From Amycolatopsis benzoatilytica AK 16/65 (GTDB lineage Bacteria; Actinomycetota; Actinomycetes; Mycobacteriales; Pseudonocardiaceae): DNA of 64,000 bases. The DNA is taken from positions 5,638,564 to 5,702,563 of the forward strand of contig NZ_KB912942.1 of assembly GCF_000383915.1 (NCBI RefSeq). The letters are read 5' to 3'. Shown here piece after piece: positions 10,310-54,753 of this stretch; within the stretch, counting starts at the first letter, position 1, and each line of letters starts with the position of its first letter. The translations under genes were made by a program, and so were the position numbers. The notes beneath the pieces are model-generated. The model was not told the DNA's origin. It made no database searches and saw only the letters and a list, made by a program, of their open reading frames with translations.

Positions 10310-11932
10310 TCAGCTGGCCTTGCAGCGAGTGCCCGCCGGCGGCGTCGTGCCGTCGATCAGGTACGCCGTCCCGACCTTGTCGACACAGGAGTTCCCCTGC
10401 AGGAACACCGTGTGCTGCGTGCCTTCGAAGGTGAGCAGTGCGCCGTTCAGCGCCTTCGCGAGGTTGACACCGGCCTGGTACGGCGTCGCCGGGTCGTTAG
10501 TGGTCGAGATCGTCAGCGTCTTCGGCAGACCCGGCACGTTCGGTTCGTGCGGCTGCGACGTGTTCGGCACCGGCCAGAAGGCGCAGGCGTCCCTCGCGGA
10601 GCTGGCCTGGCGGCCGTCGTCCAGGAACGGCGCGACCTTCACGTACTTCTCCTGCGCGTCCAGGATCTGCTTCGGATCCGTGACGCGCGGGTCGTCGACA
10701 CAGCGGATCGCGGTGAAGGCGTCCTGCGTCGTGCCGTACCTGCCGTCCGGGCCGCGCTCGTTGTAGATGTCGGCAAGCTTCTCGAGCGTGGTGCCGCGCT
10801 GGAGCTTCAACTCGTTCAGCCCGGTGTTCAGGTACTGCCAGAGACTCTCCTGGTACAGCGCCTGGATCGCGCCTGTCGTCGCGTCTTCATAGGAAAGCTT
10901 GCGCCCGTCGCCGACAGGGACCGGGAAGTCGATCAGCCGGCGCGTAAGGTCCTGAAACTGCTTCGTCGCAGCAGCCGGGTCCTGGCCTAGCGCGCAGTCC
11001 TGACGCGCCGCGCACCACTTCGCGAACTCGTTGAACGCAGTGCCGAAGCCCTGCCCCTGCGCGATGAGCGAATCCTCCGGGCTCTGCGTCGGGTCGACAG
11101 CGCCGTCTAGGACCAGCGCGCGCACGTTCTTCGGGAAGGTCTCCGCATACGTGGAGCCGATGCGCGTGCCATACGAGTAGCCGAGGTATGTGAGCTTCTG
11201 GTCGCCGAGGACGCTGCGCAGCACATCCATGTCCTTCACGACGTCGCGCGTACCGACGTGCGAGAGCATGTCGTCGCCGTATTTCGTCCGCTGCGCACAC
11301 TTCGAGGCGAAGTCCTTTTGCTCCGCTTCCTGCTTCGCGACGCCAGCGGGCGAACCGTCCGTCTCGCTGTCGTCGGCACGTTCGGCGTCGCGCTCTGGCC
11401 CGGTCAGGCACTTGATCTGCGGTTCGCTCGCGCCGATCCCCCGCGGGTCGAAGCCGACCAGGTCGAACCGCTTGCCGAGGTCGGACTGGTTCACCCGGTC
11501 GAGCAGCCCCGCCGCGGCGACCATGCCCGAAGCGCCCGGTCCGCCCGGGTTCACCAGAAGCGAACCGATCCGGTCGCCCTGGTCGCTCGCGCGGTGCCGC
11601 AGCACGCCGATGGTGATGGCCTGCCCATCCGGTTTGTCATAGTTCAGCGGGACGGTCAACCGGCCGCACTCGATGCCCTGCGCTCGGAAGGCGGACTGGG
11701 CGTCGTCCGAGGTCGCGTAGGGTGCACAGGCGGACCAGGACATGCTCTGCCGATAGAACCGCTCGAGTCCGGCGGGCACCGGGCCGGACGGGGCGTGCGA
11801 TTCGACCGTGGGCGAGGGCAGGGCCTGTTCCGTGTTCGACGAGCACGCCACGAGCGTGGTCGCGAGCAGGCCGGAAGCCGCTAGCGCGAAGATTCGGCGG
11901 GCGTACGGGCTGGCGCTGGGATGACGGGACAC
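10310..11932 (-). CDS. Tap/Hip1-like alpha/beta-hydrolase lipoprotein peptidase
   Basis: 540-residue secreted serine peptidase or esterase of the tripeptidyl aminopeptidase (Tap) type, related to mycobacterial Hip1/CaeA. A signal peptide ends in the lipobox LVAC at about residue 31, so it should be membrane-anchored on the outside. Oxyanion-hole region NPGGPGASG, nucleophile Ser252 in GYSYGT, and later acid and base in TTNDPATPY (about 479) and GTQHTVF (about 507) are in the family order; the C-terminal Tap-like domain is complete. The GTG start at 11932 places the basic signal n-region (SRHPSASPYARR) correctly. It is transcribed away from secA2 across a 99-bp divergent gap. In M. tuberculosis the Hip1 gene also lies near glnA2 and panB. 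Confidence 0.9.
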   Translation of the reverse strand: MSRHPSASPYARRIFALAASGLLATTLVACSSNTEQALPSPTVESHAPSGPVPAGLERFYRQSMSWSACAPYATSDDAQSAFRAQGIECGRLTVPLNYDKPDGQAITIGVLRHRASDQGDRIGSLLVNPGGPGASGMVAAAGLLDRVNQSDLGKRFDLVGFDPRGIGASEPQIKCLTGPERDAERADDSETDGSPAGVAKQEAEQKDFASKCAQRTKYGDDMLSHVGTRDVVKDMDVLRSVLGDQKLTYLGYSYGTRIGSTYAETFPKNVRALVLDGAVDPTQSPEDSLIAQGQGFGTAFNEFAKWCAARQDCALGQDPAAATKQFQDLTRRLIDFPVPVGDGRKLSYEDATTGAIQALYQESLWQYLNTGLNELKLQRGTTLEKLADIYNERGPDGRYGTTQDAFTAIRCVDDPRVTDPKQILDAQEKYVKVAPFLDDGRQASSARDACAFWPVPNTSQPHEPNVPGLPKTLTISTTNDPATPYQAGVNLAKALNGALLTFEGTQHTVFLQGNSCVDKVGTAYLIDGTTPPAGTRCKAS

Positions 11933-12031
11933 GGTTTGATCGTGCCATCCGGGCGCGGAACTCCGACGCACCGTCGGCGCGTTGGGCAGTGCGGACGCGT
12001 CCGGAGACACATCGAGGCGAGGAGACCAGGG

Positions 12032-14371
12032 GTGGCATTGATCAGCCGGGTGGGCAAGCGGCTCCGCCGGATCATCCAGCGGCCGGGCAGCGTCGAGCTG
12101 ACCCGCTACGAAGCGCTGCTGCCCGCTGTCGAGAAGCTCGAACCGGAGCTGGAGAAGCTCGACGACGCCGAACTCACCGAGCGCGCGGGCAAGCTGCGAG
12201 ACGCGATCGGCGGTGCCGCCTCGTTCACCGACGACCAGCTGGTCGAGGTCTGCGCGCTCGGCCGCGAGGCGGCCCGGCGCAAGCTCGGCGAACGTGCCTT
12301 CGACGTCCAGCTGCTCGGCACGATGGGCCTGCTCACCGGCCACGTCGTGCAGATGGAGACCGGTGAAGGCAAGACGCTGGCCGGCGCGTTGGCCGCGGCC
12401 GGGTACGCGCTGCGCGGCCGCCGCGTGCACGTGGTGACCGTCAACGACTACCTCGCCCGCCGCGACGCGGAGTGGATGAAGCCGGTGTACGACCTGCTCG
12501 GCGTCACCGTCGGCTGGGTCGAGCCAGCGCACTCGAAGGAGGAGCGCAAGGAGGTCTACGGCCAGGAGGTCACCTACGGCGCGGTCGCCGAGATCGGCTT
12601 CGACGTGCTGCGCGACCGGCTGGTGACCCAGGCCGCCGACCTGGTGCAGCGCGCTCCCGAGGTGGCCATCGTCGACGAGGCCGACTCGGTGCTGGTCGAC
12701 GAGGCGCGGGTGCCGCTGGTGATGGCCGGCTCGATCGACCACAACGACGCCGACGAGGAGGTCGCCAAGATCGTCCGGCGGCTGCGGCTCGGCCTGCACT
12801 ACGAGACCGACTCCGAGGGCCGCAACGCGTGGCTGACCAGCGCCGGCGCCTCGGTGGTGGAGAAGTCGCTCGGCGGCATCGACCTGTACGACGAGTCCGG
12901 CTCGGACCGGCTCGCCGCGGTGAACGTCGCCCTGCACGCGCACGCTCTGCTCACGCGCGACGTCGACTACCTGGTCCGCGACGGCAAGGTGCAGCTGATC
13001 AACGCCGCCCGCGGCCGGGTCGCCGAACTGCAGCGCTGGCCGGACGGCCTGCAGGCGGCGGTCGAGGCGAAGGAGCAGGTCGCCGCCACCGACCGAGGCG
13101 AGATCCTGGACTCGATCACCGTGCAGGCACTGCTCGCCCGCTACCCGGAGGTGGCGGGCATGACCGGTACCGCGGTGGCGGTCGCCGAGCAGCTGCGCGA
13201 GTTCTACCGGCTCGAGGTCGCGGTGATCCCGCCGAACACCCCGAACGTCCGCGAGGACCAGCCGGACCGGGTCTTCGCCTCGCCGTCGCAGAAGCTGCGC
13301 GCGATCGAGGAAGAGATCCGCACGGTGCACGAGACCGGGCGGCCGATCCTCGTCGGCACCCAGGACGTGGCCGAGTCCGAGGAACTGGCCGAAAAGCTGG
13401 CGAAGGCCGACCTGCCGTGCGTCGTGCTGAACGCGCGCAACGACGCCGAAGAGGCCGCGATCATCGCCGAGGCGGGCACGAAGGGCGCGGTCACCGTGTC
13501 CACCCAGATGGCCGGCCGCGGCACCGACATCCGGCTCGGCGGCAGCGACGGCGCGAGCCGCGAGGAGGTCGCCGAACTGGGCGGTCTGCACGTGATCGGC
13601 ACCGCTCGGTACCCGTCCAGCCGGCTCGACGGGCAGCTGCGCGGCCGGTCCGGACGACAGGGCGACCCGGGCAGCGCGATCTTCTTCGCGAGCTTGAACG
13701 ACGACCTGGTGCTGTCGAACGCACCGGACCTGCCAGACGGCATCGACGCCGACAGCGAGACCGGCGAGATCACCGACCCTGCCGCGCACCGCCAGCTCAA
13801 CCACGCTCAGCGCGTCGCCGAGGGCGTCGATCTGGAGATCCACCGCAACACCTGGCGCTACACCCGGCTGATCGAACGGCAGCGCGCCGAGCTGCTGGAA
13901 CACCGCGACAAGGTGCTGCACACCGCGCTCGCCGCCGAGGAGCTGGAGAAGGCGCAGGAGGAGAAGTTCGGCGAGCTGAAGGAGAAGCTGGACGACGACG
14001 AGCGGGTCGAGCAGATCTGCCGCGAGGTCCGGCTGTTCCACCTCGACCAGCTGTGGTCGGATCACCTGGCGTATCTGACCGACGTGCGCGAAAGCATCCA
14101 CCTGCGCGCGCTGGCCCGCGAGACGCCGCTGGACGAGTTCCACCGCGCGGCGATCCCGGAATTCCACAAGATCATCGCCGAGTCCGCGGCCCGGGCGGCG
14201 AAGACGCTGGAAGAAGCCGAGATCACCGACGACGGCATCGACCTCGCCGACGCCGGGGTGCGGCGGGCCAACACCACCTGGACCTACCTGGTGCACGACA
14301 ACCCGTTCGACTCCGACTTCGAGCAGACGGTCAAGAAGGTCCGCAGCATGATGCGGATGAAGAAGTCCTGA
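12032..14371 (+). CDS. secA2: Accessory preprotein translocase ATPase SecA2
   Basis: 779-residue ATPase that drives export of a subset of proteins through the Sec channel. Walker A is METGEGKT (about residues 108-115) and Walker B is IVDEADSVLVDE. NDYLARRDAEWM, YGAVAEIGFDVLRDR and the helicase motif GRGTDIRLGG are all present. It is shorter than housekeeping SecA and ends in a basic VKKVRSMMRMKKS without the zinc-binding SEC-C tail, and its sequence follows mycobacterial SecA2. GTG at 12032 follows GAGGCGAGGAGACC; an in-frame extension to 11921 would overlap the divergent gene. It ends in a strong hairpin. Dedicated substrates are not encoded next to it. Confidence 0.93.
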   Translation: MALISRVGKRLRRIIQRPGSVELTRYEALLPAVEKLEPELEKLDDAELTERAGKLRDAIGGAASFTDDQLVEVCALGREAARRKLGERAFDVQLLGTMGLLTGHVVQMETGEGKTLAGALAAAGYALRGRRVHVVTVNDYLARRDAEWMKPVYDLLGVTVGWVEPAHSKEERKEVYGQEVTYGAVAEIGFDVLRDRLVTQAADLVQRAPEVAIVDEADSVLVDEARVPLVMAGSIDHNDADEEVAKIVRRLRLGLHYETDSEGRNAWLTSAGASVVEKSLGGIDLYDESGSDRLAAVNVALHAHALLTRDVDYLVRDGKVQLINAARGRVAELQRWPDGLQAAVEAKEQVAATDRGEILDSITVQALLARYPEVAGMTGTAVAVAEQLREFYRLEVAVIPPNTPNVREDQPDRVFASPSQKLRAIEEEIRTVHETGRPILVGTQDVAESEELAEKLAKADLPCVVLNARNDAEEAAIIAEAGTKGAVTVSTQMAGRGTDIRLGGSDGASREEVAELGGLHVIGTARYPSSRLDGQLRGRSGRQGDPGSAIFFASLNDDLVLSNAPDLPDGIDADSETGEITDPAAHRQLNHAQRVAEGVDLEIHRNTWRYTRLIERQRAELLEHRDKVLHTALAAEELEKAQEEKFGELKEKLDDDERVEQICREVRLFHLDQLWSDHLAYLTDVRESIHLRALARETPLDEFHRAAIPEFHKIIAESAARAAKTLEEAEITDDGIDLADAGVRRANTTWTYLVHDNPFDSDFEQTVKKVRSMMRMKKS

Positions 14372-18756: not shown

Positions 18757-21700
18757 TCACACCTGGGGCCGGACGAACGGGAACAGCACGGTCTGCCGGA
18801 TCGACGTCCCGCTCAGCATCATCAGCAGCCGGTCCACGCCCATGCCCAGGCCGCCGGTCGGCGGCATGCCGTGCTCCAGCGCCAGCAGGAAGTCCTCGTC
18901 CAGTTCCATCGCCTCGACGTCGCCGCTCGCGGCGCGCAAAGACTGGGCTTCCAGGCGGCGGCGCTGTTCGAGCGGGTCGGTCAGCTCGGTGTAGGCGGTG
19001 CCCACCTCGGAGCCGAACGCGATCAGGTCCCAGCGTTCGGCCAGCCTCGGGTCGCGGCGGTGCTGGCGGGTCAGCGGCGAGACCTCGGTCGGGTAGTCGG
19101 TGTAGAAGGTCGGCAGCACCGTCTTTCCTTCGACCAGGTGCTCGTGCGCTTTCAACACCAAGTCGCCCGCGCCGGCGTCCTCAGGCACCGGTACACCGGC
19201 GGCGAGGCACACCTTTCGCAGGGTCGCGACCGAAGTGCTCGAGTCGATCTCCTCGCCGAGCGCCTCCGACACCGCGGTGTGCACCGGGATCACTGGCCAG
19301 TCACCGGAGATGTCGTGCTCGACGATTCGGCCGTCGGCGCCGTGGCGACGCACGATCTGTGCGCCGTAGGCGGCTTCGGCGGCGTACTGGATCAGCTCGC
19401 GCATCAGCTGCCGCATGGAGTTGTAGTCCGCGTACGCCTGGTACGCCTCCAGCATCGTGAACTCCGGGTTGTGCGTCGCGTCGACACCCTCGTTGCGGAA
19501 GTTCCGGTTCAGCTCGAAGACCCGCTCGACCCCCGCCACGCACAGCCGCTTCAGGTACAGCTCCGGCGCGATCCGGAGGTACATCCGCATGTCGTAGGCG
19601 TTGATGTGGGTGATGAACGGCCGTGCGTTCGCACCGCCGTGGATGGTCTGCAGCATCGGGGTTTCGACTTCCAGGAAGTCGCCCTGGTGCAAGCGCTCCC
19701 GCAACGAGCGGACCACGGTGGACCGCAGCCGCAGCAGGTGCGCGGAGTCCGGGTTGACCGCCAGGTCCAGATAGCGCTGCCGCACCCGCGTCTCCGGGTC
19801 GGTCAGGCCCTTTCGCTTGTCCGGCAACGGATGCAGGCACTTCGCGGTGACTGTCCACTCGTCCACCAGCACGGACAGCTCGCCCCGCTTCGACGTGATC
19901 ACCTCGCCGCTCACGCCGACGTGGTCGCCGAGGTCGACGCCGGTGCGCCAGCCGGTCAGGTCGAGCACCTCGGCGTCGAGCATCAGCTGCAGTTCGCCGG
20001 AGAAGTCCTTGATCCGCGCGAAACACAGCCCGCCGAGGGTGCGCAGCGCGAGCACTCGCCCGGCCACCCGCACCCGTTCGCCGGTCCGGGTGTCCGGGGC
20101 CAGCTCGCCGAACTTGCCGACCACGTCCCCGAGCAGGTCCTCGCGGGCGAAGCCGACCGGGTACGGGTCCACCCCCAGCTCGCGCAGCTTGTCCACTTTG
20201 GCCACTCGCACCCGCACCTGCTCCGGGCGGCGCTTGGCCGCCGGGACCACCTTCGCGGCCGCTTCGTCGATCTGGCGGACCTGATCGAAGAAGTCCTCGC
20301 TGACGTTCTCCAGTTTCAGCGTGCGGGCGCGGCCGGTGGGCACGAAGCCCTCCAGCGCGCCGGCGACGATGCCGACCCGCGGGAGTCGCCGGGCCGAGGT
20401 GTAGCAAAGGAACCGCGGTTCCCAGTCCGGGCCGTACTTCGCGTTCGACCGGTAAAGCGACTCCAGCTGGAAGAACCGCGACGCGACACCGAGCACCGAC
20501 CGCCAGGCGCGCAGCACCGGGCCAGCCCCGATCCGCTCGCCTTCGGAGAACACGGCCCGGAACATCGCGAAGTTCAGCGAGATCCGCTGCGTGCCGATGT
20601 GCTGCGCGGCCGCGACGACCTCCGCCACCATGAACTCGTTGAGCCCGTTCTCGGCGTCCCGGTCGCGCCGCATCAGGTCCAGCGAAAGACCGCGCCGGCC
20701 CCACGGCACGAAGGACAGCAGACCGCGGAGCTGGCCGCGCGCGTCGTACGCCTCCACCATCACGCTGCGGCCGTCGCTCGGGTCGCCGAGCCGGCCGAGG
20801 GCCATCGAAAAGCCGCGCTCGGACTCGTCGCCGCGCCACTGCTGCGCGCGGGCGAGCAACTGCGCCATCTCGTCTTCGGGGATTTCGCTGTGCCGTCGCA
20901 CCTGCGCGGTGTACCCGGCACGCTCGATCCGCTTCACCGCCTGCCGGACCGATTTGCGCTCGGGACCAGTGAGGGAGAACTCGCGAACGTCGAGGACCGC
21001 TTCGTCACCGATCTCCAGCGCGCGCATCCCGGCGGCCGCGTACGCCTTCGCGCCTTTCTCGCTGGCACCGAGAGCACCCGGGATCCAGCCGTACGTACGT
21101 GCCTCGTCGATCCATGCCTGCACCGCGTCCGGCCATGCGTCCGGGTCGCCGATCGGGTCCGCGCTCGCGACACTGGTGCCGCCCAGGACTCGGTACGTCA
21201 CCGCGGCGCGACCGTTGGGAGCGAACATGACGCTCTTGTCGCGACGCGTCGCGAAGTAGCCGAGCGAGTCGTCCTCGCCGTACTCCGCAAGCAGGCGGCG
21301 CACCCGCAACTCTTCCTCGTCGGTCCGGATGCGGCGGCTGCGTACGCCGCGGAAGAGCGTGTACAGCGCGGCTGTAGCCACGAAGGTCGCACCGATGTCG
21401 AGCACCCAGTCGACCCAAGCCGGCCCCTCGCCGATGCCGATCCGGCGCAGCTGCAGGTTCTCGCCGGTGGCGTGGTTGACGGTCCAGGCGAACCGCTCCC
21501 AGGTGTCGCCGAGCGTGCCCGGGAACACCTCGGTGAGCCCCCAGCCGAGCAGGATCACGCCGACGAAGCCCAGGAACAGCACGGACAGCCCGTTCCACCA
21601 GGCGCCAGGGGCGAGCCGGGCGGGGAACGCGGGCCGCAGCGTCAGCAGGAACCAGATCAGCAGGATCGAGATCGCGTCGGCGACGGCGAGCGCGCCGACC

Positions 21701-22080
21701 TGGGTCGGGATGTGCCGCATCTGCCGGGTGCTCAAGGTGAGCAACTCGGGCGAGAACAGCAGCAAGTACTGCAGGACCAAGGTGGTCACCAGGCCGGCGA
21801 CCTGGAACAGCACGAGCACGTACAGCGCGGCCTTCTTGCGCCGGCGCAACGCGGCGCCCAGCACGGTGAGCATCAGGATGATCACGAGGCTCGAACTGGT
21901 CGGCACGCTCACCGCGCCGAACACCATGTCGATGCCGTTCATCACGCGTCCGTGCCGCCCGCCGGCTAGCAGCAGCACCACCGAGAAAATCGCGGCGAGC
22001 TGCACGATCGTGGCGGCCAGACCACCGGCTCGGGCCTTCCAGCCGGGGATGCGCGGGCGGGCGCTCACTGCGGTTTTCAT
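18757..22080 (-). CDS. lysX: Bifunctional lysyl-phosphatidylglycerol synthase / lysyl-tRNA synthetase
   Basis: 1107-residue fusion that charges tRNA-Lys and transfers the lysine to phosphatidylglycerol, lowering membrane negative charge and giving resistance to cationic peptides. The N-terminal ~240 residues hold about six or seven membrane helices. An MprF-type DUF2156 transferase domain follows (about 245-570; [28 protein letters not shown]). The rest is an OB fold plus class II LysRS core with [16 protein letters not shown] (motif 2) and [13 protein letters not shown] (motif 3). ATG 22080 follows AGAAAGG. The layout matches mycobacterial LysX. A separate housekeeping LysS is expected elsewhere. 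Divergent from panB across 239 bp. Confidence 0.95.
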
Positions 22081-22319
22081 CGGTACCTTTCTGCGGGGCA
22101 CCGGGTCGCTGCGAAGGCCCGGCGTTTCCACCACCGGACACAAAACGGTCCGATGCCTGTCAAGACGTCACAGGAGGCAAATCGGTTGTCCGCACCCGCC
22201 CGTGTGAAGCTGGTCGCACGGTCTTGGGGCGGTTCGGCCCGCGTGTCACGCTGAGACCGGTACTGATTCCACGACCCGGGGACCTCTTCGAGGCCCCGAG
22301 GGAAGGACGGTCGACGACG

Positions 22320-42745: not shown

Positions 42746-42943
42746 TCAGTCGCCGTCCCATTTGCGGTCGGCCGCGTCGGCTTCTCGGGTGCGTTCGCGG
42801 GCGATCTCGAGCGCACGGCGGGCCGTGGCCTCGTCCGGGTACGGGCCGAGGAGGTCGACACCGCGGCTGCGCTCGAGGTGCTCGACTTCGCGAGTGCGAG
42901 TGTTGTAGTACCAGCCCTGGTCGGGGTTCGGATCGTCAGACAT
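42746..42943 (-). CDS. Small acidic conserved protein, 65 residues
   Basis: WYYNTRTREVEHLERSRG and LLGPYPDEATARRALEIARE form a compact alpha/beta pattern that I associate with a short protein widespread in actinobacteria, of unknown function. The WYYN...GPY...A layout is reminiscent of SPOR-like repeats. ATG 42943 lies 24 bp after the stop of the 831-residue gene, in the same direction, so it may be the last gene of the secretion operon or merely its neighbour. Soluble, no signal. Confidence 0.75.
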   Translation of the reverse strand: MSDDPNPDQGWYYNTRTREVEHLERSRGVDLLGPYPDEATARRALEIARERTREADAADRKWDGD

Positions 42944-42967
42944 AGGTTCAGCCTGGCACTTCGCCGC

Positions 42968-45463
42968 TCAGTTGCGCCAGCGGAACGGGATCTCGGTGGG
43001 CGCGCCGGTGGGACCGAACTCGGCTGGCGCGTCGGAGTCCTCGTGGTCCGGGTGCTCGTCGAACCACCCGCGGGAATCCGGCACCGCGATGCCGCGCGGC
43101 GGAGTCGCGGCGTCGTCCTCGGGCGCGCGGTGGCTCGGCTCCGGCACCGGCGGCACGGCCGGTTCCTTCCCCGGGAAAACCGGCAGCTCGGTCCGATGCA
43201 CCCGGCTCGCCGGCGGCGGCGCGGCCGGCCCGGTCTCCTGCCCGGGAAAGACCGGCAACGGCCGTCCGTCCGGCCCGGTCTCAGCCGGACGAACCCCGCC
43301 GCCGGGCTGCGGCAGGGGGAACTGCCCCGACGGCGTCGGCGGCTGCCCGTAGGCAGCGGGCGACGGGGCCGGCGGCGGACTGCCGAATCCCGCACCCTGC
43401 GGCGGATCGACCGGCGTAACCGGATGCTGCTCCCACGCGGGGGACGCCGGCTGCCCGTACTGCGGGACTCCCGCCGAACTCGGCGGCTGAACCGGCGCGG
43501 GAGGAGTCTGCTGCGGCCCGGCCATGGCCGGCGGCGGTCCGGCCGGAGGCTGCGGCGGGGCCAAAGGCGGTTGGTGAGGCACTGGCCCAGGCTGAGACTG
43601 CGGCGGCACCGCCGCGGATGGCGGCACTGGCTGATACGGCGGCACCGCGCCCGCGTGCGGCGGCTGTGGCATCGACTGCTGCGCGACGCCCCCAGCCGGA
43701 GTCCCCGGCGGCGCGCTGGGCATCGGCGGGCGCGGTTCGTATGCCGCCGTGCTCTCGATTGGCGGCCGAGGCTGCGTGACGCCCGGTGCATACGGACCCG
43801 GTTCAGGCCGACCCTGCTGGCCCACCCCACCCGCGGCATTCCCTTGCGGCGGAACAGCTTCCGCCGCAGGGCGGGCCGGTTGCCGCGGCTCGTGCACGTA
43901 GGGCTTCGGTTGCCACGCCTGCCGGGCACGGAGCTGCGCGTCGCTGGTCGCGTCGCGGCGTCCGGACGGGACCGGCGAATCCGGGACGGCCGGAGCACTC
44001 GCCGGATCGGCCACCGGACGCGCTGGAACACCCGGGACGACAGACTGGCCCGCCGCTGCGATCGGCGGCTCGGGCGTCGTCGGCTGCGCAGACACCTTCG
44101 CCGGTTCGGGCGTCCTCGGCGGCTCGACGGGAACTGGTTCCGTCGCCACCCGTTCAGCAACCGGCACAACCGGCTCCGCAGGCGCCACGGGTTCCGCTGC
44201 GGGTTCGGCGACCTCCACTGGTTCCGCGCTCGCCTCGCCGAGTTCCGCTATCTCCGAGTCGGGTGCCGGAACGGCGGGCACCGCGGCGTCGTCGCGAGAG
44301 GCAACCGGGACCGGCTCGGCGAGAGGCTCCTCGACCGCAGCCGGACCTGCCGCCGACACCTCGTCCACGCCAGATCGCGGGGCCTCGGCAGGAGGCTCGA
44401 CCGCAACCGAGGGCTCGTCCGCAGCCTCCGCGACCTCCTCCTCGACGGGCGGCGATGTCCCGTCAGCCGGAGCTTCCTGGACCGAAAAACCCGTCTGTTC
44501 CGGTTCTGCGGCGAGCGATGTCTCCGCAGTCTCCGGTCCGCCCGCGCTCTCGCCGACAAGTGGTGAAACCGGTTCGGGCGCAACCGATTCCCGGGCTTCC
44601 TCCACCGGAGGCGGACTGGGCACCACCGGACCGGGCGGTGCCGAAGACTGCTCCCGACCGCCAGCCGCCTCGGCCGCGCCCGGCGGCGGCCCGGCCGGCG
44701 CGGGCGGCTGCACCGGCGGCTGCGGGACTAGGCCGGCCGGCGGAGCCTGGCTGACATTCCTTGACGGCACCGCCCCCGGGACACCCGGTCCAGCACCGGA
44801 GCCCGAGTCCGCCGCTCCCGGACCACCACCGGAAACCGACCCGGGCATCCCCTCCTCAGGCCCGTGCGGCACCGACCGCCACACCGGTGCCGGGCCGATG
44901 TTCATCGGAACCGGCGCGGCCAACGGCCCCGGTGCCGCCGGCTCCCCGGGCACCGCCCCCGGCGGGCCCGCCGGACTGCCTGGCATCCGCTTCTGGATCG
45001 GGTCCAGCGACGACACCAGAACCGTCGTGCGCTCCGGGTCCTGGACTTTCCGGCCGCTGCGCTCGCGGTACACCATCTCGCCTTCGGCGTCCATCTCGAC
45101 GAGGTAGCCGGCTTCGGCCAGCTGCTCCTCGTCGAGATCGACCAAGCGCTCGTACCGGGACGGCACCACCCGGTAGACCGGCCAGGACAGCTGCCCGTGC
45201 TGTGCGTGGAACTGGGCCAGCAGCGCCGCCATCTGCTGCTGCCACGGCAGCGACATGCCCTCGGCCAGCGACCGCGGCAGGACGACGTACCCGGGGTCCA
45301 CGCCCGGCCAGCCCTGGTTCAGCAGGTCCGCCAGCGGAGTGCTCGACGCGGGGTGCGCGGACTGGCGCGGCGGCTGCGGCGCGCCGAACAGCGCCGCCGG
45401 GTCCTGGGGCTCGTTCTGGCCCGCTTTGCCGCGCTTGCCGAATTTCCGTGCCACGTGTGCCAT
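42968..45463 (-). CDS. 831-residue Pro/Glu-rich protein of T4SS-like operon
   Basis: Not recognised as a named family. The N-terminus is basic ([16 protein letters not shown]). A folded-looking region (about 40-150) includes [57 protein letters not shown] and [18 protein letters not shown]. The remaining ~650 residues are low-complexity: first Glu/Ala/Val/Pro-rich and acidic, then Pro/Gln/Gly-rich. Near the C-terminus the motif LPVFPG[QK]E occurs twice (about 736 and 760), ahead of an acidic [14 protein letters not shown] stretch and the end FRWRN. There is no signal peptide or membrane helix, so it is cytoplasmic unless it is itself a secreted substrate. Located 101 bp after the cell-wall hydrolase gene on the same strand. 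Confidence 0.85.
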
Positions 45464-45564
45464 CCTCTGCCAGCGCGCGGCCACGTGCTCGTGGACAGGC
45501 CGCGACTTCGGGTGAATCCGGACCCGTTGGACCGGGTCAAGAGCCGGTGCCTCCCGTACCCATG

Positions 45565-46560
45565 CTAGACGCCGGGGCGCACCGCCTGCGGCACGACTTC
45601 GCGCTCGTCGAACGAGAACGGCCGGACGTGCACCGGAACGCCGGTCTGCTGGGCCTCGACGATCTTGCCGCCGCCCAGGTACATCGCGACGTGGTGGATG
45701 GTCGAGGGATCGGCCGGGTCGGTCGCGAGGAACACCAGGTCGCCGGGCTGCGCCTCGCGTACCGGGAGCATCGCGCCCGCCTTGTACTGGTCCCGCGACA
45801 CGCGCGGCAGGATCACCCCCGCCGACTCGTAAGCGCGCAGCATCAGACCGGAGCAGTCGAACGAATCCGGGCCGGTCGCGCCCCACACGTAGGGCTTGCC
45901 CTGTTCGGCGAGCGCGAACTTGATCGCCTGCGCGGCTGCCTGGCTCGGCGGCAGCGCCGCGCCGACACCCTGCCCGCAGCCGACCACGTCGGCGATCTGT
46001 CCCAGGTTCTGCACCAGCGAAGCCGCCATGGCCTCCCACCGGTGGTACCGGTCCGGAAAACCGGAACGCTCGACCTGCTGCGCAGCGTCCCCGGGGCGCA
46101 TGTTCTGCCAGTCCTGGACGGCCAGCAGCACGTCGTAGAACTTGTTGATCGCGTAGTTCGGGTCGGTGACCTGGGCCGCACTGCCCCAGTTCATCGACGG
46201 GCGCATCTGGAAGATGCCGAGCGAGTCGCGGTCGCCGTAGTGCACGTTGTGCAGCCGCGATTCGGTCATCCCGGCCTGGATCGCGACCTGCCAGGCACGC
46301 GGCGCCAGACTGCGCTGTTTGCCGATCGAAATGATCAGCGACACGGTGTTGCGCGATTCCTGGTCGAGCTGGGAAGCGTCCGAGCCGCCCTGCGCCGGCT
46401 GCCCGGGCTGGGTGGGGCCGATCGCCGCGTCGCAGGCCGCCGGGGCGATCCCGCCCGCCGCCGCCTGCTGGTCGGTGACGACCTTCGTCACGACGTTGCT
46501 GGTGAGCACAGCGGCGAAAACCGCGGCGACCAGCACCGCGACGAGAACCGCGATCTTCAC
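45565..46560 (-). CDS. VirB1-like cell-wall hydrolase: lysozyme-like plus NlpC/P60
   Basis: 331-residue exported enzyme. An N-terminal membrane anchor ([18 protein letters not shown]) precedes a lysozyme-like glycosidase segment ([30 protein letters not shown], about 90-160). The NlpC/P60 endopeptidase follows, with nucleophile Cys about 234 in DSFDCSGLM and His in [11 protein letters not shown]. This two-domain layout equals Tn916 Orf14 and other Gram-positive conjugation hydrolases that open peptidoglycan for a secretion channel. GTG 46560 lies 2 bases past the upstream stop with AGGCGAG ahead; ATG 46596, overlapping that gene, would add 12 residues. Confidence 0.9.
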
Positions 46561-46562
46561 GG

Positions 46563-47159
46563 TCAGCTCGCCTGGTCGTAGTCCGATACTCGCCATCCCG
46601 CGTCAGTCTTGACCACGGTGATGCTGAGTTTCGGACCGTCGGTGGGGACCACGACCTTGACCGAGCTGACATACGACTCGACGACCGTCGGGTCGCCGGT
46701 CACCTTGGTTGCCGGGATGTTCCCCGGGTCCACAGTGGACATCACGGGCAGGTACTCGTCGGTGGTGAGCCCGCGCATCCCGTTCAGCCAGTCAGCGTTC
46801 GAGATGCCCGCCGGATGGCGCACCCAGGCGTTCGCCCACTGCCTGGCGACGTTGACCGCCTCCGGGCTCGGCGCCGCTGAGGTAGGCGTGACCAGCGGCT
46901 GGGTCAGCCGGGTCGGCAGGGTCTCAGTGCTCGGCACCGGGGCCGCGACGCCGGTGTGCGGCGCGGCTGACGACGACGCCGCGGCGCCGGTCTGCGCGGC
47001 CGCCGGTTTGCCGAGCACCTTCGGCAGGCCGATGCCCAGCGCGGTGACTACCAACGCGAGGAACACCAGCGTGCCGACGAGATGCCGGGGCGAGCGGAGC
47101 GGGAAACCCCACAGGCGGCGGTAGACCGCGGTCCGGCCGCGGTTGGTGCGGATCGGCAC
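46563..47159 (-). CDS. VirB8/TcpC-like conjugation-type membrane protein
   Basis: 198-residue bitopic protein: basic N-terminus ([15 protein letters not shown]), one helix ([19 protein letters not shown], about 27-45), a Ser/Ala/Pro linker, then an extracellular alpha/beta domain ([54 protein letters not shown]). This is the size and layout of one NTF2-like domain as in VirB8 and TcpC/Orf13 of Tn916, which connect inner channel parts. The sequence match is by pattern only. GTG 47159 sits 3 bp after the upstream stop. Fully within the operon. Confidence 0.78.
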
Positions 47160-47162
47160 GGG

Positions 47163-49238
47163 TCACCGCCCCATGACCTGGTCGGTGTCGCGCACTTCGA
47201 TGCCGCGCGACGGGCGATACAGCACGAACACCGGTTTCCCGGCGACCACCTCGGGGTCCACCCGGCGCGGCTGCGCCCGGATGCCCGGCGGCGTGTAGCC
47301 CGGCTGGTCCGGGGCGGGCGCGGAGTACCCGCGGTCCGGCGCGCTCATCCGGGACGGCACGACCACCGGCTCCGGCTCGTCGCTCCACCGCCGGTCCGCG
47401 ACCGGGGACGTGTCGACCTGCCTGCTCTCCCGGAGCGGACGGCCCGAACTGGACAGCACGTAGTCGCCGGGCGCGCCGGCCACCGGGTGGTACTGGCCGA
47501 ACACCGGCGCCGCGCCGCCGCGGCCCGCGGGCAGCGCGCCCGCGGCCGACTGGGCCGGACCGATCGCGCCCGGCCACGGAGCGCCGGACCACGCCGCGGC
47601 GGGACGAGCGGCCCGGGAGCCGTTGTCGAGCCGTTGCGCGCTGGCGAACACCGCCGCCTCGGGCCGGTAGCGGCCGCCGCCGACGGTCGCGCCGATCGGG
47701 CCGCGCACCTCGCCGTCGACCACGTCGTCGGTGTCGCGGACGTTCTGCCAGAACTCGTCCTGCGGCGTCGGCCCGTTGTTCCCGCGAAACCGGGAGAAAA
47801 TCCCGCCGCGCGGCGACGGCACCGCACCGCCGACCATGCTGACCGACATCTCGACCATCTGCCACAACCGCCGCACCGGACGCCCAACCAGGAACAGCAG
47901 CACGGTGATAAGCCCGGCCAGCACCATCTTGGTGAGCAGGTTGAGCGAATCGCCCGCGCCGAAGATCGCCTGCAGCAGCAGCGCGTGCACGCCGGCCAGG
48001 ACGGACAGCACGACCAGGTTGAACGCGATCGCGCCGGCCACCTTGAGCACCCGGCGCAGGATGTCCGGGTGCAGCAGCGCGACCAGGCCGATCAGCGGCG
48101 CGGTGAGCGCGAACAGCCGGATCAGCACCTGGGCGAGCAGAACGGACGCCTTGGCCAGCAGCTGGAAAAGCGAGTAGACGAGGCTCTGGCCGAGAGCGAG
48201 GAACCCGGACCCGGTGCGACCACCGGCTTCGCCGGTGAAGTAGCCGGTGGTGGGGCCGAGTTTGGTCGAGATGTCTTTGAAGGCAGCCTTCTTGCCGTCG
48301 ATGACGTCCTGCTTGGCGTCGTCCCCGTTGCGCAGCTGCGGCCAGGTGAACGCTTGCGCGTCGAGCAGCTTCTCCCCGTATTGCTTGGCCTGCGGCGAAT
48401 TCGGGTCGCCGAATTCCCCGCGCAGCCAGTTCTGGTAGACGACCTCGTTGTGCAGCTCCGTCGGCAGGATGTGCCGGACGACCTTGTTCTCCGAGTTGTC
48501 GACGAACCCGGATTGGATATTGGTCGTGGTCTGCACGATCGCGTTGTCGATCGGATCCAGATAGCGCAGCATCGCCAGCGACGAGGCCGCCAGCCACACC
48601 GCGGCCAGCCCGTACAACGCGCGTTTGCTGACCCCGGCCAGGTCACCGCGCCAGATCTTGCTGAACAGCATGATCGACATCAGCAGCGCCACCAGGCCGA
48701 ACAGCTGCGCGTAAACGTTGTTGTAGACCTTCTCCGCGCCGGACTTCACCGCGTTGTAGATCGGGTTCAGCAAGCCGCCCTCGAGCACCGTGTAGTGCAG
48801 CGAGTTGGTGGCCCCGACGATGTTCTTGCCGATGTTGAAGAGCTGGTTGCCCGCCCAGGTGTCGATCGTCGTGCTCGGCGACGCGATCGCCGACAGCGCG
48901 GTGCAGTTGGTCTGGTAGGTGTTCCAGACCAACCCGGCGTAGTTGTACTGCAGGTACGGGCTGCCCGCCTCGCCGTGGCCTTCGACCGGTGGGTCGAGCG
49001 CGCCGACCATGCCCGCCCCGGGACGCTCCGGATTGGGCGATTCCCCGCACGCCGCGGCGTTCGCCGCCGGGGCGAAAAGCACCGTTTGCACGCCGATCAC
49101 CGCCACCACGGCGAGCATCGCCGCGCGGCGGCTGGGGCGGCCGCGGCCGGGTTTCGGCCCTTCCTTGATCCGCTTGCGCAGCGCGTGCCAGCCGGCGGCG
49201 AACGCGAGGACGAACGCCAGCGTGAAGACGGTGTTCAC
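47163..49238 (-). CDS. VirB6/TrbL-like polytopic channel protein
   Basis: 691-residue membrane protein. A first helix (VFTLAFVLAFAAGW) and a second hydrophobic stretch ending in ANAAACGES start it. A ~100-residue extracellular loop and then roughly seven more helices between about 165 and 430 follow (LFGLVALLMSIMLFSKIW, LIRLFALTAPLIGLVALL, LLTKMVLAGLITVLLFLVG). The last ~240 residues are Pro/Gly-rich and hydrophilic, like the tail of the 831-residue protein. Size and helix pattern fit VirB6/TrbL/Orf15, the core channel of Gram-positive T4SS. GTG 49238 has GAGGAGG 5 nt ahead. Its start overlaps the stop of a 17-codon frame. Confidence 0.82.
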   Translation of the reverse strand: MNTVFTLAFVLAFAAGWHALRKRIKEGPKPGRGRPSRRAAMLAVVAVIGVQTVLFAPAANAAACGESPNPERPGAGMVGALDPPVEGHGEAGSPYLQYNYAGLVWNTYQTNCTALSAIASPSTTIDTWAGNQLFNIGKNIVGATNSLHYTVLEGGLLNPIYNAVKSGAEKVYNNVYAQLFGLVALLMSIMLFSKIWRGDLAGVSKRALYGLAAVWLAASSLAMLRYLDPIDNAIVQTTTNIQSGFVDNSENKVVRHILPTELHNEVVYQNWLRGEFGDPNSPQAKQYGEKLLDAQAFTWPQLRNGDDAKQDVIDGKKAAFKDISTKLGPTTGYFTGEAGGRTGSGFLALGQSLVYSLFQLLAKASVLLAQVLIRLFALTAPLIGLVALLHPDILRRVLKVAGAIAFNLVVLSVLAGVHALLLQAIFGAGDSLNLLTKMVLAGLITVLLFLVGRPVRRLWQMVEMSVSMVGGAVPSPRGGIFSRFRGNNGPTPQDEFWQNVRDTDDVVDGEVRGPIGATVGGGRYRPEAAVFASAQRLDNGSRAARPAAAWSGAPWPGAIGPAQSAAGALPAGRGGAAPVFGQYHPVAGAPGDYVLSSSGRPLRESRQVDTSPVADRRWSDEPEPVVVPSRMSAPDRGYSAPAPDQPGYTPPGIRAQPRRVDPEVVAGKPVFVLYRPSRGIEVRDTDQVMGR

Positions 49239-49288
49239 GCAGGCCTCCTCGAGGCCGTCGCCGGCCGGGTCGGATCAGCGGGTTTCAT
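49235..49288 (-). CDS. 17-codon coupling ORF between virB4- and virB6-like genes
   Basis: MKPADPTRPATASRRPA. Its ATG overlaps the VirB4-like stop (ATGA, 49285-49288) and its TGA overlaps the GTG of the VirB6-like gene (GTGA, 49235-49238). The two AGG codons within it are the Shine-Dalgarno of the next gene. It may simply hand ribosomes across the gap; no peptide function is claimed. Confidence 0.45.
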   Translation of the reverse strand: MKPADPTRPATASRRPA

Positions 49289-52242
49289 GCGGCATCCCTG
49301 CCGGTGCCGCCTTTGCCCGCGCGGGCGTGCCGGTCCTCGGCCGAACGTCCGTTGTGCACTGCACCCTCCACCTCGCCGGTTTCGGACGCGAGCGGGTCCG
49401 GCGAGCCCAGCAGCTGCTCGTCGGCGAGACCGACCTCGAGTTCCGCTTGGAGTTCGAAGTCGTGTTCCAGCTCGTCGTCCTCCGGTGGGGCGGGGACGTA
49501 CGGCTTGGCCTCGTCCTCGCGGGGTGCCACGAGTTCGCTGCCGGGTTTCTTCGTGCGTGCGTCGGGCGAACCGGGGGTGGTGTCCATGACCGCGCGCAAC
49601 GAGTCGAGATGCGGGCCGGAGAAGTCGACGCGGATCCGCTCCACGCCGCCGGCGCCGTCGCCGAAGATGAACTGCCGGGGCTCCATGTCGCGTTCCAGGC
49701 CGCGCTGCGCACCCGGGCGGCGGCCCAGCGCCGCGACGACCTGCTCGTAGCCGACGCCGACCGGCACCTTCAGCAGCCGCAGCGCGTCCGCCTGGGCGTC
49801 GTCGTCGTCCAGCCTGCCGACGAACACCGAGTCCAGCAGCGCCACGAAACCCTGGATCTTCAGGAAGTCCGCCGGGATCTGCGACGAAAGCAGCACCCGG
49901 ACGTTCCACTTCCGCGAGTCACGAGCGAACCGGTTCATCAGCACTCGCCCGGTCGGCACCTCGGACAGGAAGAACGCCTCGTCGATCCAGACGCCCTTGC
50001 GCAGTTCCTTCGGCTTCTCGTACACCGACCGCTGGGTCAGCCAGGCCGCCAGGTTCAGCATTTCCACGCCGAGCGATTCGGCGTCGGTCCAGTACTCGCG
50101 CGGCACGCCGTCCTTGGGCAGGGTCAGACCCGCCATGGTCAGCACGGTCATCCGGTCGTCGCGGGTCTCGGCGTACGGGTCCGCGCCGTCCTCCGGGATC
50201 AGCAGCGCCATCCGCTCGCGCATCTCGTCCAGGAAGTCGGCGACCACGACCGCGTGCTCGTGGTGCTCGCTGGAGTCGCGCCGCAGCGCGTCGATGACCT
50301 GGCCCGGGTCCGCGTCGAACCGGCCGCCGACCGCGCGGACCGCGCGCAGCAGCACGATCCGGGTCTGCGCCATCCGGGACACCTCGTACGGCAGCACGCC
50401 GGTGAGCACGTCCAGCACCAGCCGCCGCCGGGTCGCTCCGGCGAGCGCCTTTTCGCGCCGCCAGGAGCGTTCCGGGTCCTCCTCGTCCATGAAGTGCTCG
50501 ATCAGCGGATCGGCGACCACCCGGTACGGGTTGAGGATGCCGGGCTGGGCGTTGAGCAGGTTGATCGGCCGCGCGTAGGGGCGGATCTCCGGCAGGTCGC
50601 ACAGCCGCGACAGCGGGCCGGACGGGTCGAGGATCGTCCAGTGCGCGCCGGCTCGCAGCGTCTTGTAGACGATTCCGCCGCCGAGGAACGACTTGCCGCC
50701 GCCGAGGCCGGCCACCATCGCGGTGAGGCCGGATCCGTCGCGGATCTCCTGTGCCATCCACGGATCCCAGGCGACCGGCCGCCGGGTCGCGGTGACCGTT
50801 TCGCCGAGCAGGATGCCGCGCCGGTCGCCGACCTCCGCGGTCGCGGTGGGCACCGCGGACGCCGTCCACACCACCGAGCCGCGGCGCATGTACGCGGCCG
50901 AGGCGAGCGGCTCGCCCGGGATGAACTCGCGCGCCATCGCGTACTGCGCTTCCGGGTGCTCGATGGCGATCTTCGGCTTGTACAGGTCGAGCAGCTGCTG
51001 GGCGAGCCGCAGCGCGTCGCGCTCGGTCGGCCCGGAGACCGCCAGCCGCCACCACGACCGCACCCGGGTGGCGAGCGCGGTGAAGCCCGACGTCATCTCG
51101 TCGTCGATCTCCAGCACCCGCCCGGCCTGCCGCGACAGCGACTGCGGCGGTTCCAGCTCGTGCTCGTCGGTGTAGTGCTTGACCTGCGAGCGGACCTTGT
51201 TCATCTGCCGCTGCAGCTCGCCGGACACCTCTTCCGGGCGGCGCACGTAGATCCGCGCGGACACCTCGACCGCGGCCGGCAGCCGGTCCGCGTGCTGGAT
51301 CCACGGGTCGTCCACCTCGGGGATCTGCAGCCCGTGCATCTGGCCGACGGTGAGCACCGCGAGGTGCCGTGACACGCCGGCGTTGGACCCGGTGCGGCCG
51401 CGCACGGTGACCGTCGGCGCGTACGGGTCGGCGTGGAAGTCAGCCGCGTCGGTGAAACTGGCGAGGTCTTCCGGTTCCCAGGCGGCGCCGGGCACGGCGG
51501 GCATGTTGCGCGGCGCGGGCAGGCCCAGCGAGCAGGAGCGGTGCATCAGCCAGGACATCTCCTCGGCGTGCACCGGGCGGCCTTCCAGCCCGGCGCTGCC
51601 GATGACCTGGTCGAGGTGCTCGATCTCGGAGTCCAGCGCGGCGAGTTCGGCGTCGACCGCCTCGGGCAGGATCCGGCGCAGCACCGGCGCGGCACGCTCG
51701 ACCGCGCGGTCCACCATCCGCCGGGTCTGCACCTGAACGCCCAGGTAGACCTCTTTTTCCGCCATCGAGCGGCCCATCAGCTGCTGCTGCTCGCCGATCA
51801 GGTAGTCGTCGAACGACGGCGCGCCGGGGACGTCGTTCGGCCGGCCGACCGCGTTGTGCACGTGCGCCTCGGCCCACATCCGGATCGGGTACGGCCGGTT
51901 CGTGACGCGCAGGTGCAGCCAGCGGCCCTGCAGCTCGGAGTACTGGCCGGCGATGGCCGCGATCAGGTCCCGGCGCTGCGAATCGGACCGGAACGACCAG
52001 CGCTGCGGTGCGAGCCGGTACCAGGCGTACACCTCGTACCCCGTCCGCAGCAGGTGCCCGTCGATGCTGCGCGCGGCGATCGACGGCGTGTACGCCGGTA
52101 TCGCCTGCTCACCGGGCAGCCGGCGGCCCTTGCCGCCGGAGTTCTTGCCGCCGGACGGCGAACGGCCCTGCGACTGCGCGTTCCACGCGTCGGCAGGGGT
52201 GTCCCGATCCCGCTTCCCTCGGCTTCCGCCGCGACCGAACAA
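49285..52242 (-). CDS. VirB4/TraC-family T4SS ATPase
   Basis: 985-residue ATPase, the probable motor of the cluster. After a basic Gly-rich tail, an N-terminal domain of ~400 residues (TPSIAARSIDGHLLRTGYEVYAWY in outline) is followed by the RecA-like domain: Walker A GLGGGKS near residue 510, DPSGPLSRLCDLPE, Walker B VWIDEAFFL near 750, and the VLLSSQIPADF sensor motif. A C-terminal acidic tail follows. The length and order fit VirB4 proteins such as Tn916 Orf16. The start is TTG 52242, chosen for GGGAGG 6 nt ahead and a 3-bp gap from the previous stop. No membrane helix. Confidence 0.9.
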   Translation of the reverse strand: MFGRGGSRGKRDRDTPADAWNAQSQGRSPSGGKNSGGKGRRLPGEQAIPAYTPSIAARSIDGHLLRTGYEVYAWYRLAPQRWSFRSDSQRRDLIAAIAGQYSELQGRWLHLRVTNRPYPIRMWAEAHVHNAVGRPNDVPGAPSFDDYLIGEQQQLMGRSMAEKEVYLGVQVQTRRMVDRAVERAAPVLRRILPEAVDAELAALDSEIEHLDQVIGSAGLEGRPVHAEEMSWLMHRSCSLGLPAPRNMPAVPGAAWEPEDLASFTDAADFHADPYAPTVTVRGRTGSNAGVSRHLAVLTVGQMHGLQIPEVDDPWIQHADRLPAAVEVSARIYVRRPEEVSGELQRQMNKVRSQVKHYTDEHELEPPQSLSRQAGRVLEIDDEMTSGFTALATRVRSWWRLAVSGPTERDALRLAQQLLDLYKPKIAIEHPEAQYAMAREFIPGEPLASAAYMRRGSVVWTASAVPTATAEVGDRRGILLGETVTATRRPVAWDPWMAQEIRDGSGLTAMVAGLGGGKSFLGGGIVYKTLRAGAHWTILDPSGPLSRLCDLPEIRPYARPINLLNAQPGILNPYRVVADPLIEHFMDEEDPERSWRREKALAGATRRRLVLDVLTGVLPYEVSRMAQTRIVLLRAVRAVGGRFDADPGQVIDALRRDSSEHHEHAVVVADFLDEMRERMALLIPEDGADPYAETRDDRMTVLTMAGLTLPKDGVPREYWTDAESLGVEMLNLAAWLTQRSVYEKPKELRKGVWIDEAFFLSEVPTGRVLMNRFARDSRKWNVRVLLSSQIPADFLKIQGFVALLDSVFVGRLDDDDAQADALRLLKVPVGVGYEQVVAALGRRPGAQRGLERDMEPRQFIFGDGAGGVERIRVDFSGPHLDSLRAVMDTTPGSPDARTKKPGSELVAPREDEAKPYVPAPPEDDELEHDFELQAELEVGLADEQLLGSPDPLASETGEVEGAVHNGRSAEDRHARAGKGGTGRDAA

Positions 52243-52245
52243 CGA

Positions 52246-52734
52246 CTACCTCCCGGCCCGAGCCGCGGGGCGGCTCCGGCGCGCTCGTGGTGCTCCCTGA
52301 TTCCCGGCCCTGGTTCCCGCTCCGCGGCTGACGCCGTGGTGCTGGTATTGCCGCCTTCTTTTGTGCTTCGGCAGCGGGCGCTGCGCCCGCACCCGGACCC
52401 GGCTGGCGCTCGCCGCGCCGCCCTCGCCCGAAGTCTGTTCACGCGGCGCGCGCAGCTCCTGGCCCATCATCGCGATCACCGCGCCCAGCGGGCGCTCGTG
52501 GCTGATCTTGGCGGTGATCAGCCGGGTGATCACGATCGTGGCCACGAACGCCCACGCCGTGGAAAAGAACCCGAAACTCCAGCCGACCCACCGCTCCACG
52601 GTGAGCACGAGCAGGAAGATGGGAATGCCGACGAGCCACGCGACGTAGCGGGCACGCCAGGGAAAAGTCGCCTTCGGCGGGCCGAGCCAGACGGCATCGA
52701 CCCGGTATACCTCGTCATCGGTCCTGATCCGCAC
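52246..52734 (-). CDS. VirB3/PrgI-like membrane protein
   Basis: 162-residue protein with two adjacent helices (VAWLVGIPIFLLVLTVERWVG and FGFFSTAWAFVATIVITRLI in outline, about 30-70) after a short DDEVYRVDAVWLGPP head, then ISHERPLGAV and a long basic, disordered tail rich in Arg, Ala and Pro. VirB3/PrgI-type proteins have this head-two-helix form and always lie beside VirB4. GTG 52734 has GGAGCAGG upstream. 12 bp after the pilin-like gene. Confidence 0.78.
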   Translation of the reverse strand: MRIRTDDEVYRVDAVWLGPPKATFPWRARYVAWLVGIPIFLLVLTVERWVGWSFGFFSTAWAFVATIVITRLITAKISHERPLGAVIAMMGQELRAPREQTSGEGGAASASRVRVRAQRPLPKHKRRRQYQHHGVSRGAGTRAGNQGAPRARRSRPAARAGR

Positions 52735-52746
52735 GCCTGCTCCGCC

Positions 52747-53010
52747 TCAGCCGGTGAACAGGCCGGCGATCCACTGGCCCACGTTGACGCCCGCGCCGCT
52801 CACCGCCAGCCCGATGATCGCGAGCGCGATGACGACGCCGGCGAGCCGCCGCATGACCCCTGCGTTGTCTCCCTTGCCGCCGCCGAGCCACAGCAGCAGA
52901 AGCGCTACCGCGAGCAGCACGAGCGGGATGACGTTGTCGAGCAGCCAAGTGCGGACATTGGCGGTGCCGAGCCCGGCAGCCAGCGTCTCGAGGGTGGTCA
53001 TGCTGGTCAT
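52747..53010 (-). CDS. VirB2/pilin-like small membrane protein
   Basis: 87 residues with two hydrophobic helices (NVIPLVLLAVALLLLWLGGG and MRRLAGVVIALAIIGLAVSG, split by a short GDNAGV turn) and a hydrophobic C-terminus VNVGQWIAGLFTG. Size and topology match TrbC/VirB2-type subunits and TcpD-like small proteins, although the signal peptide typical of VirB2 pilins is not clear. ATG 53010, GGGAGT ahead. First gene of the operon. Confidence 0.75.
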   Translation of the reverse strand: MTSMTTLETLAAGLGTANVRTWLLDNVIPLVLLAVALLLLWLGGGKGDNAGVMRRLAGVVIALAIIGLAVSGAGVNVGQWIAGLFTG

Positions 53011-53073
53011 CGCGATACTCCCGGTGCACGGTTGGCGCCGCGCTGGTCTGGCTTCGGCGAAGCTGTGAACACC

Positions 53074-53102
53074 ATCATGGCGTTACTTGGCGTAATGGTC
53101 AA
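53074..53102 (-). promoter_or_regulatory. Promoter of the T4SS-like operon with dyad
   Basis: On the minus strand TTGACC (53097-53102), 17-nt spacer, CATGAT (53074-53079), about 65 nt ahead of the first ATG. Within the spacer is the dyad TTAC-N5-GTAA (53083-53095), a possible operator. Confidence 0.5.
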
Positions 53103-53477
53103 AGCGCGCTGGGTACATGTCGACTTGTGGTCAAGGTTGGGTGCTGCGGTCCGGTGCACAGGATTGCTCGCCCTCCATCATCGTGGCAAGGGTGCTCCGG
53201 ATTAACCCCAGCCACCCGGATTTCGCAGCGCACCGGCGAAGTGGCCCCGCAGGAGGTGCGGTGGTCACTCTCGGTGCGCTCCAGCCCGGCGTGTCGGGCG
53301 GGGACCAGTGTGACATGCCCCGATCGGCCCCTCGCCGCGAGTCCGGTGCGTGAGCGCGGCGCTTGGAAAACGATCTGGAATCGATCACTCTCCGATGCGA
53401 TTCCGGTCACTACCGCGCCCGAAGTGCGCACTTGTTCACTACAAAGCGTGATCTCGGGCAGCCCGGCCGCCGCGAGG
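53103..53477. other. 375-bp intergenic stretch with no recognisable gene
   Basis: Between the T4SS-like promoter and the stop of the SCO6745-like gene. Short open frames exist on both strands but lack ribosome sites and family resemblance. No clear hairpin seen. Confidence 0.5.

Positions 53478-54356: not shown

Positions 54357-54753
<397 letters not shown>

Follow-up and report, generated by a model that had tools for sequence, protein, structure and literature searches.

A chromosomal type IV secretion-like operon conserved across sampled Pseudonocardiaceae and probably domesticated from conjugation machinery

Gene content of the operon

A 64-kb stretch (hereafter the window) of the 8.70 Mb single-contig genome of Amycolatopsis benzoatilytica AK 16/65 carries a minus-strand operon of eight genes, orf1 to orf8, at 42746-53010. 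The operon probably encodes the channel core of a conjugation-type type IV secretion system (T4SS) that has been domesticated to serve as a resident machine and has no coupling ATPase of its own. A preliminary description of this DNA had recognized a type IV secretion-like operon on the minus strand, and this observation is confirmed: candidate pilin-like and PrgI/TcpE-like proteins and VirB4, VirB6-like, VirB8-like and hydrolase products are accompanied by an 831-aa protein, to which a 65-aa protein is now added. The genes and the region upstream of them are as follows (TM, transmembrane).

orf1, 52747..53010, minus strand: 87 aa, first gene, two TM segments (TM-like at 27-45 and 57-75); VirB2/pilin-like small membrane protein
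orf2, 52246..52734, minus strand: 162 aa, two N-terminal TM segments; PrgI/TcpE (VirB3)-like
orf3, 49285..52242, minus strand: 985 aa, VirB4-type ATPase
orf4, 47163..49238, minus strand: 691 aa, VirB6-like polytopic membrane protein with a Pro/Gly-rich tail
orf5, 46563..47159, minus strand: 198 aa, one TM segment and one NTF2-like domain; VirB8/TcpC-like
orf6, 45565..46596, minus strand: 343 aa, TM-anchored wall hydrolase with a muramidase-like and an NlpC/P60 part (VirB1-like)
orf7, 42968..45463, minus strand: 831 aa, start checked, no TM segment; an N-terminal domain of about 130 aa is conserved and a Pro-rich tail varies
orf8, 42746..42943, minus strand: 65 aa, soluble, last gene
upstream region, 53011..53340, minus strand: conserved blocks in an alignment of 40 sequences, two copies of ATGATGG among them; likely a promoter/regulatory region with possible regulator sites

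The orf3 product matches AAA_10 (E 1.7e-20) and the TcpF model (E 6e-19, below that model's cut-off), and its Walker A and B motifs, described earlier as intact, are so and are invariant in 16 of 16 sequences compared. The orf4 product, with five TM-like segments, matches NF046089, which we take to be a VirB6-like family, with an E of 1.8e-8 that is significant yet below the model cut-off. The orf6 hydrolase matches NLPC_P60 (E 1.3e-24), the muramidase 8b2e and Tn916-like hydrolases, and its catalytic residues E112, C248, H301 and H302 are invariant (77/77). Structure prediction gave the VirB8 candidate of the preliminary description, orf5, a VirB8-like NTF2 fold; Foldseek alone yielded nothing at E <= 0.001. 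Neither orf1 nor orf2 of the window has a Pfam match of its own: TrbC/VirB2 was matched by one of 27 aligned orf1 relatives (E 2.2e-4), and among 31 aligned orf2 relatives two matched TcpE (best E 1.4e-6) and one PrgI (E 4.6e-6).

Unusual Pro/Gly-rich tails had been reported for the orf4 and orf7 products. The orf4 protein does have a Pro/Gly-rich tail and orf7 a Pro-rich one. The latter differs between lineages: conserved domain and tail together, up to the stop codon, span 159-160 residues in the Lentzea loci versus 1041 in one Amycolatopsis (L089). Across genera this tail (window 42968-44850) ranges from nearly none to very long, while the N-terminal domain is conserved.

Conservation and selection within the Pseudonocardiaceae

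VirB4 is present in 24/24 genomes of the genus, A. benzoatilytica AK 16/65 included, and in all 200 sampled genomes of the family, representing 46/46 genera; the patchy presence that the preliminary description named as evidence for a mobile element was looked for and not found. Apart from the window itself, the matches listed within the family are 78-94% identical in VirB4, and three family genomes in an order-wide sample have it at 63-64% identity. Gene order was compared in 80 named loci of Amycolatopsis and other Pseudonocardiaceae, which are the best 80 of 270 matches, lean to near relatives and have flanks of at most 10 kb. Order and strand are retained in 80/80 as far as the genes are present (orf1 in 79, orf2 in 79, orf3 in 80, orf4 in 79, orf5 in 76, orf6 in 76, the orf7 N-terminal domain in 74 by tblastn, orf8 in 63; profile matches to the orf7 domain number 76). 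The full orf1-orf6 series occurs in order in 76 loci and all eight genes in 61; of the four loci without full orf1-orf6, two reach a contig end (L125, L130) and two are broken by a scaffold gap of 100 N (L110, L121). Divergent family members share the same core, with other neighbours in two of them (L187, L188).

The channel module is intact and under selection. By a simple counting method applied to the window versus 30 Amycolatopsis loci (21 for orf8), median dN/dS is lowest for orf1 (0.10) and VirB4 (0.11), followed by orf8 (0.14), orf2 (0.23), orf4 (0.27), orf6 (0.28), orf7 (0.28, N-terminal domain only) and orf5 (0.47).

The flanks are less uniform. The preliminary description had asked whether they are constant, and they are not: a CooC/ParA-like gene is found in 36 of the 80 named loci and a SCO6745-like gene in 68, not always adjacent, while an RNB exoribonuclease gene is found in 56.

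Evidence on mobility

No relaxase, FtsK-type ATPase or phage-type integrase was found among the 43 window proteins scanned with Pfam, in agreement with the preliminary description; some smaller open reading frames lay outside the scan, and the relaxase search was confined to the window. The absence of a relaxase says little in actinobacteria, because 63 of the 101 plasmids with a matching VirB4 are typed as non-mobilizable despite that gene, as are 9 of the 10 that were fetched. VirB4 occurs in every sampled genome and genus of the family, orf1-orf6 stand in order in 76 of 80 loci and dN/dS is 0.10-0.47; on this evidence the operon is not a mobile element.

An ordinary integrative and conjugative element (ICE), an integrated plasmid or a decaying remnant of either is thus already contradicted and very improbable. 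The module is homologous to plasmid genes, and the window holds one transposase gene (9000-10241, about 33 kb from the operon), but the neighbours scanned are mostly housekeeping genes, the motifs are intact, and the GC content of the operon (72.0%, versus 71.05 and 70.4 in the flanks) shows no anomaly. There is no tRNA gene anywhere in the window; a scan of 49 related loci, 42 of them from the named 80 and 7 from a set of 20 other regions, found tRNA genes in only 7, the closest about 1.9 kb from the operon. An element with patchy presence at att or tRNA sites was rejected on these grounds.

Relatives outside the family

The order-wide sample yielded a VirB4 match in 126 of 298 genomes; only two candidates per genome were scored in the order-wide and phylum-wide searches, and absences there are therefore soft. 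In a second family, f15, which is probably the Micromonosporaceae, 142 of 150 genomes encode VirB4; 41 of 44 genera are represented, and the identity is mostly 37-42%. Profiles of orf2-orf6 found all five genes in order in the examined loci of four families (one locus of f7, two of f11, two of f13, five of f15) and in five plasmids, and orf1 was clear or weak in only part of these. In one f15 and one f13 hydrolase scanned (L181 6152-7405, minus strand; L182 13251-14411, plus strand), M23 replaces NlpC and the lysozyme-like part is retained. In the VirB4 tree the 17 rows of Pseudonocardiaceae group together in a single short-branched clade (100/100), f11, f13 and f15 form another (100/100), and plasmid copies lie mostly elsewhere on longer branches.

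The nearest mobile relative found is a putative transfer module of actinobacterial plasmids, such as those of Streptomyces sp. 891-h (NZ_CP050694), Nonomuraea (NZ_CP107854) and Pseudonocardia (NZ_CP080522), all of them linear. VirB4 was matched by 101 plasmid records, all below 60% identity and 39-42% in the best eight. The five plasmids with orf2-orf6 in the same order match the orf4 profile at E 4.5e-54 to 1.9e-31 and have a small membrane protein before orf2, which the orf1 profile matched clearly in two, weakly in two and not at all in L152; a single plasmid homologue of orf7 was found (L154, E 2.2e-10). The plasmid modules differ from the chromosomal form in having FtsK/SpoIIIE nearby in 8/10 of those fetched, whereas the chromosomal form has no FtsK found beside it and is present in every sampled genome of the family.

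Coupling ATPases

In the eight plasmids the FtsK/SpoIIIE gene near the module is annotated; a ninth encodes an unannotated protein with weak similarity to those of the eight, and none is annotated in the tenth. Profiles built from the eight plasmid proteins and from other FtsK proteins detected nothing in the window or the 80 named family loci; the search covered open reading frames of 100 aa or more and flanks up to 10 kb. Among 20 other fetched loci, the same profiles detected a plasmid-like contig (L192), three f15 loci (L181, L189, L190) and a VirB4 protein itself, the last at E 1.8e-4. The f15 gene was not seen in the two remaining fetched loci of that family (L186, L200).

Two other loci were noted. 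An FtsK-type gene in L201 (7756-11387, minus strand) is a homologue of the FtsK beside the operon in the three f15 loci and has small proteins, helical-looking by eye, on both sides. An element-like cluster of the AK 16/65 genome (L202, G000:C1:7525001-7535000), possibly an actinomycete integrative and conjugative element, encodes a 758-aa protein that overlaps an FtsK_SpoIIIE stretch, and its last open gene is integrase-like by eye.

Comparison with described systems

The preliminary description had equated the operon with the channel module of Tn916-type elements. The Tn916/ICEBs1-type module presumably has the same functional parts, and the NlpC domain of orf6 matches Tn916-like hydrolases, but of the matches found the actinobacterial plasmid module comes closest, and not Tn916 as such. 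In Tn916 the hydrolase gene stands before the one for the VirB8-like protein, whereas in the operon it stands after it, and the relaxase, coupling protein and integrase of such elements were not found in the window.

A literature search, with subscription papers outside its coverage, gave as prior descriptions only Cmd and an isolated virB4-like gene in Micromonospora lupini (PMC4182475). In Streptomyces coelicolor, sporulation and chromosome segregation are disturbed when the chromosomal T4SS-like operon CmdABCDEF (SCO4126-4131) is lost; three of its genes resemble transfer genes of plasmid SLP2, similar clusters occur in several Streptomyces, and its loss leaves transfer of an SLP2-derived plasmid unchanged according to unshown data of that paper (PMC2782261). 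In a later mutagenesis screen, insertions in cmdBCDEF were linked to increased actinorhodin (PMC6585502). Compared by description and not by sequence, Cmd and the present operon are both chromosomal with a VirB4-like ATPase, and Cmd differs in that its ATPase domain is reported at 44-427 (PMC2782261).

The archaeal Ced and Ted systems are domesticated conjugation machinery comprising VirB4, VirB6 and a VirB2-like pilin, and archaea have no apparent relaxase homologues (PMC9905601). The operon is likewise chromosomal and fixed in its lineage, with VirB4, a VirB6-like protein and a candidate pilin. Ced/Ted differ in being archaeal and in that DNA import has been demonstrated for them, whereas for the operon it would be a hypothesis; the accessible text mentions neither a wall hydrolase nor VirB8 for Ced/Ted (PMC9905601). 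MOBless chromosomal T4SS, those of Patescibacteria included, resemble the operon in their monoderm VirB1/3/4/6/8 set, of which VirB3 has a candidate counterpart here, and lack a relaxase in most clusters (PMC12102498, PMC3158045, PMC12857230). The Patescibacterial systems differ in having VirD4-like proteins and pilin arrays; no VirD4-like gene was found beside the operon. Systems without a type IV coupling protein secrete protein, may build pili, or import DNA (PMC12857230), and a survey of actinobacterial ICEs has been published (PMC3218068).

Other features of the window

Three features of the window outside the operon were also observed.

54358-54747, minus strand: class A RNase P RNA, located a short way upstream of the SCO6745-like gene
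11921-14371, plus strand: 816-aa SecA-like ATPase with SecA domains, possibly an accessory SecA2
18757-22143, minus strand: LysX-like protein in which phosphatidylglycerol lysyltransferase and lysyl-tRNA synthetase domains are fused

Proposed mechanism and alternatives

The inference of the preliminary description, a resident secretion or envelope machine or else a DNA transporter with parts elsewhere, is supported by the universal presence of VirB4 in the sampled family, by the mostly housekeeping neighbours and by the window and 80 named loci in which FtsK profiles detected no coupling ATPase; the machine probably does a job for the cell itself. The channel would be related to the actinobacterial plasmid module and would have been fixed in the chromosome of the family ancestor. 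The products of orf2, orf4 and orf5 would constitute a membrane platform powered by VirB4 (orf3), which most likely would extract the two-TM orf1 protein and build from it a short pilus or pseudopilus within the VirB6/VirB8 channel. The orf6 product could cut both glycan and peptide of the thick wall to open a passage, and the conserved domain of orf7 is a candidate cytoplasmic adaptor that may feed or anchor the machine. The assembly, the pilus and the adaptor role are all inferred. A role in the hyphal envelope or in development, as reported for Cmd, is by analogy the candidate function to be tested first.

Several observations weigh against this interpretation. The PrgI label of orf2 and the VirB2 label of orf1 depend on relatives and position, and the VirB6 label of orf4 on a match below the model cut-off. 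An FtsK-type gene lies downstream of the operon in the three f15 loci named above, and L133, a named locus in which the profiles detected nothing, has a weak blastp match to the f15 FtsK (27%, E 6.9e-5) about 7 kb from the operon. A homologue of the f15 FtsK (28-33% identity) is encoded elsewhere in the AK 16/65 genome, at 7.514 Mb; a search at E <= 1e-60, with seven candidates scored per genome, detected it in 94 of 120 family genomes, which represent 35 of 46 genera. It could therefore serve the machine in many species, and for the same reason is unlikely to be an obligatory partner. ESX ATPases or a generic FtsK might act for the machine as well. The VirB4 tree is midpoint-rooted with long-branch warnings and is compatible with one capture or several by the two families. 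Finally, in a Streptomyces-like genus (g22, inferred to be Streptomyces) the window VirB4 had a match in just one of 26 genomes (E <= 1e-3), and the transfer of function from Cmd is therefore an analogy only.

What the machine moves can be weighed between protein and DNA. Export of effectors or envelope proteins, either in a single step with orf7 as adaptor or, as in Ptl, in two steps of which Sec/Tat provides the first, is possible but tentative: MOBless chromosomal T4SS have been proposed to be mostly protein secretors (PMC3158045), protein secretors without a coupling protein exist (PMC12857230), and no coupling ATPase was found beside the operon, but no cognate effector or signal was recognized, and uniformity of the machine over 46 genera is, in our judgement, unexpected of a weapon-like effector system. 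It is doubtful that the operon encodes a domesticated DNA-exchange machine, moving the organism's own DNA between hyphae or importing DNA in the manner of Ced/Ted, perhaps with a general FtsK or other FtsK-type motor. The plasmid modules as nearest mobile relatives, the FtsK-type genes adjoining 3/5 of the fetched f15 loci, the precedent of Ced/Ted as VirB4, VirB6 and VirB2 systems domesticated where relaxase homologues are not apparent (PMC9905601) and DNA import by Helicobacter ComB without VirD4 (PMC12857230) are consistent with it; against it, FtsK profiles found no motor beside the operon in any of the 80 named loci, 26 of the 120 family genomes gave no match, at the threshold given above, to the FtsK homologue encoded elsewhere, and no DNA-processing gene was recognized within the operon. 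By our estimate, a protein or pilus function comes somewhat ahead of DNA. A more far-reaching proposal, which we consider unlikely, is that the system was captured before the radiation of at least one filamentous actinobacterial family and that its core apparatus builds a wall-crossing pilus or channel between hyphae, through which the organism's own DNA or signals move with neither a relaxase nor a dedicated coupling protein, as a bacterial counterpart of Ced/Ted.

Few T4SS were found in actinobacteria by the study of MOBless T4SS (PMC3158045); a T4SS core in 46/46 sampled genera of one family, with VirB4 in 41/44 genera of another, is a large exception. This probably domesticated channel may matter for the growth of hyphae, for secretion and for the exchange of genes in antibiotic producers.

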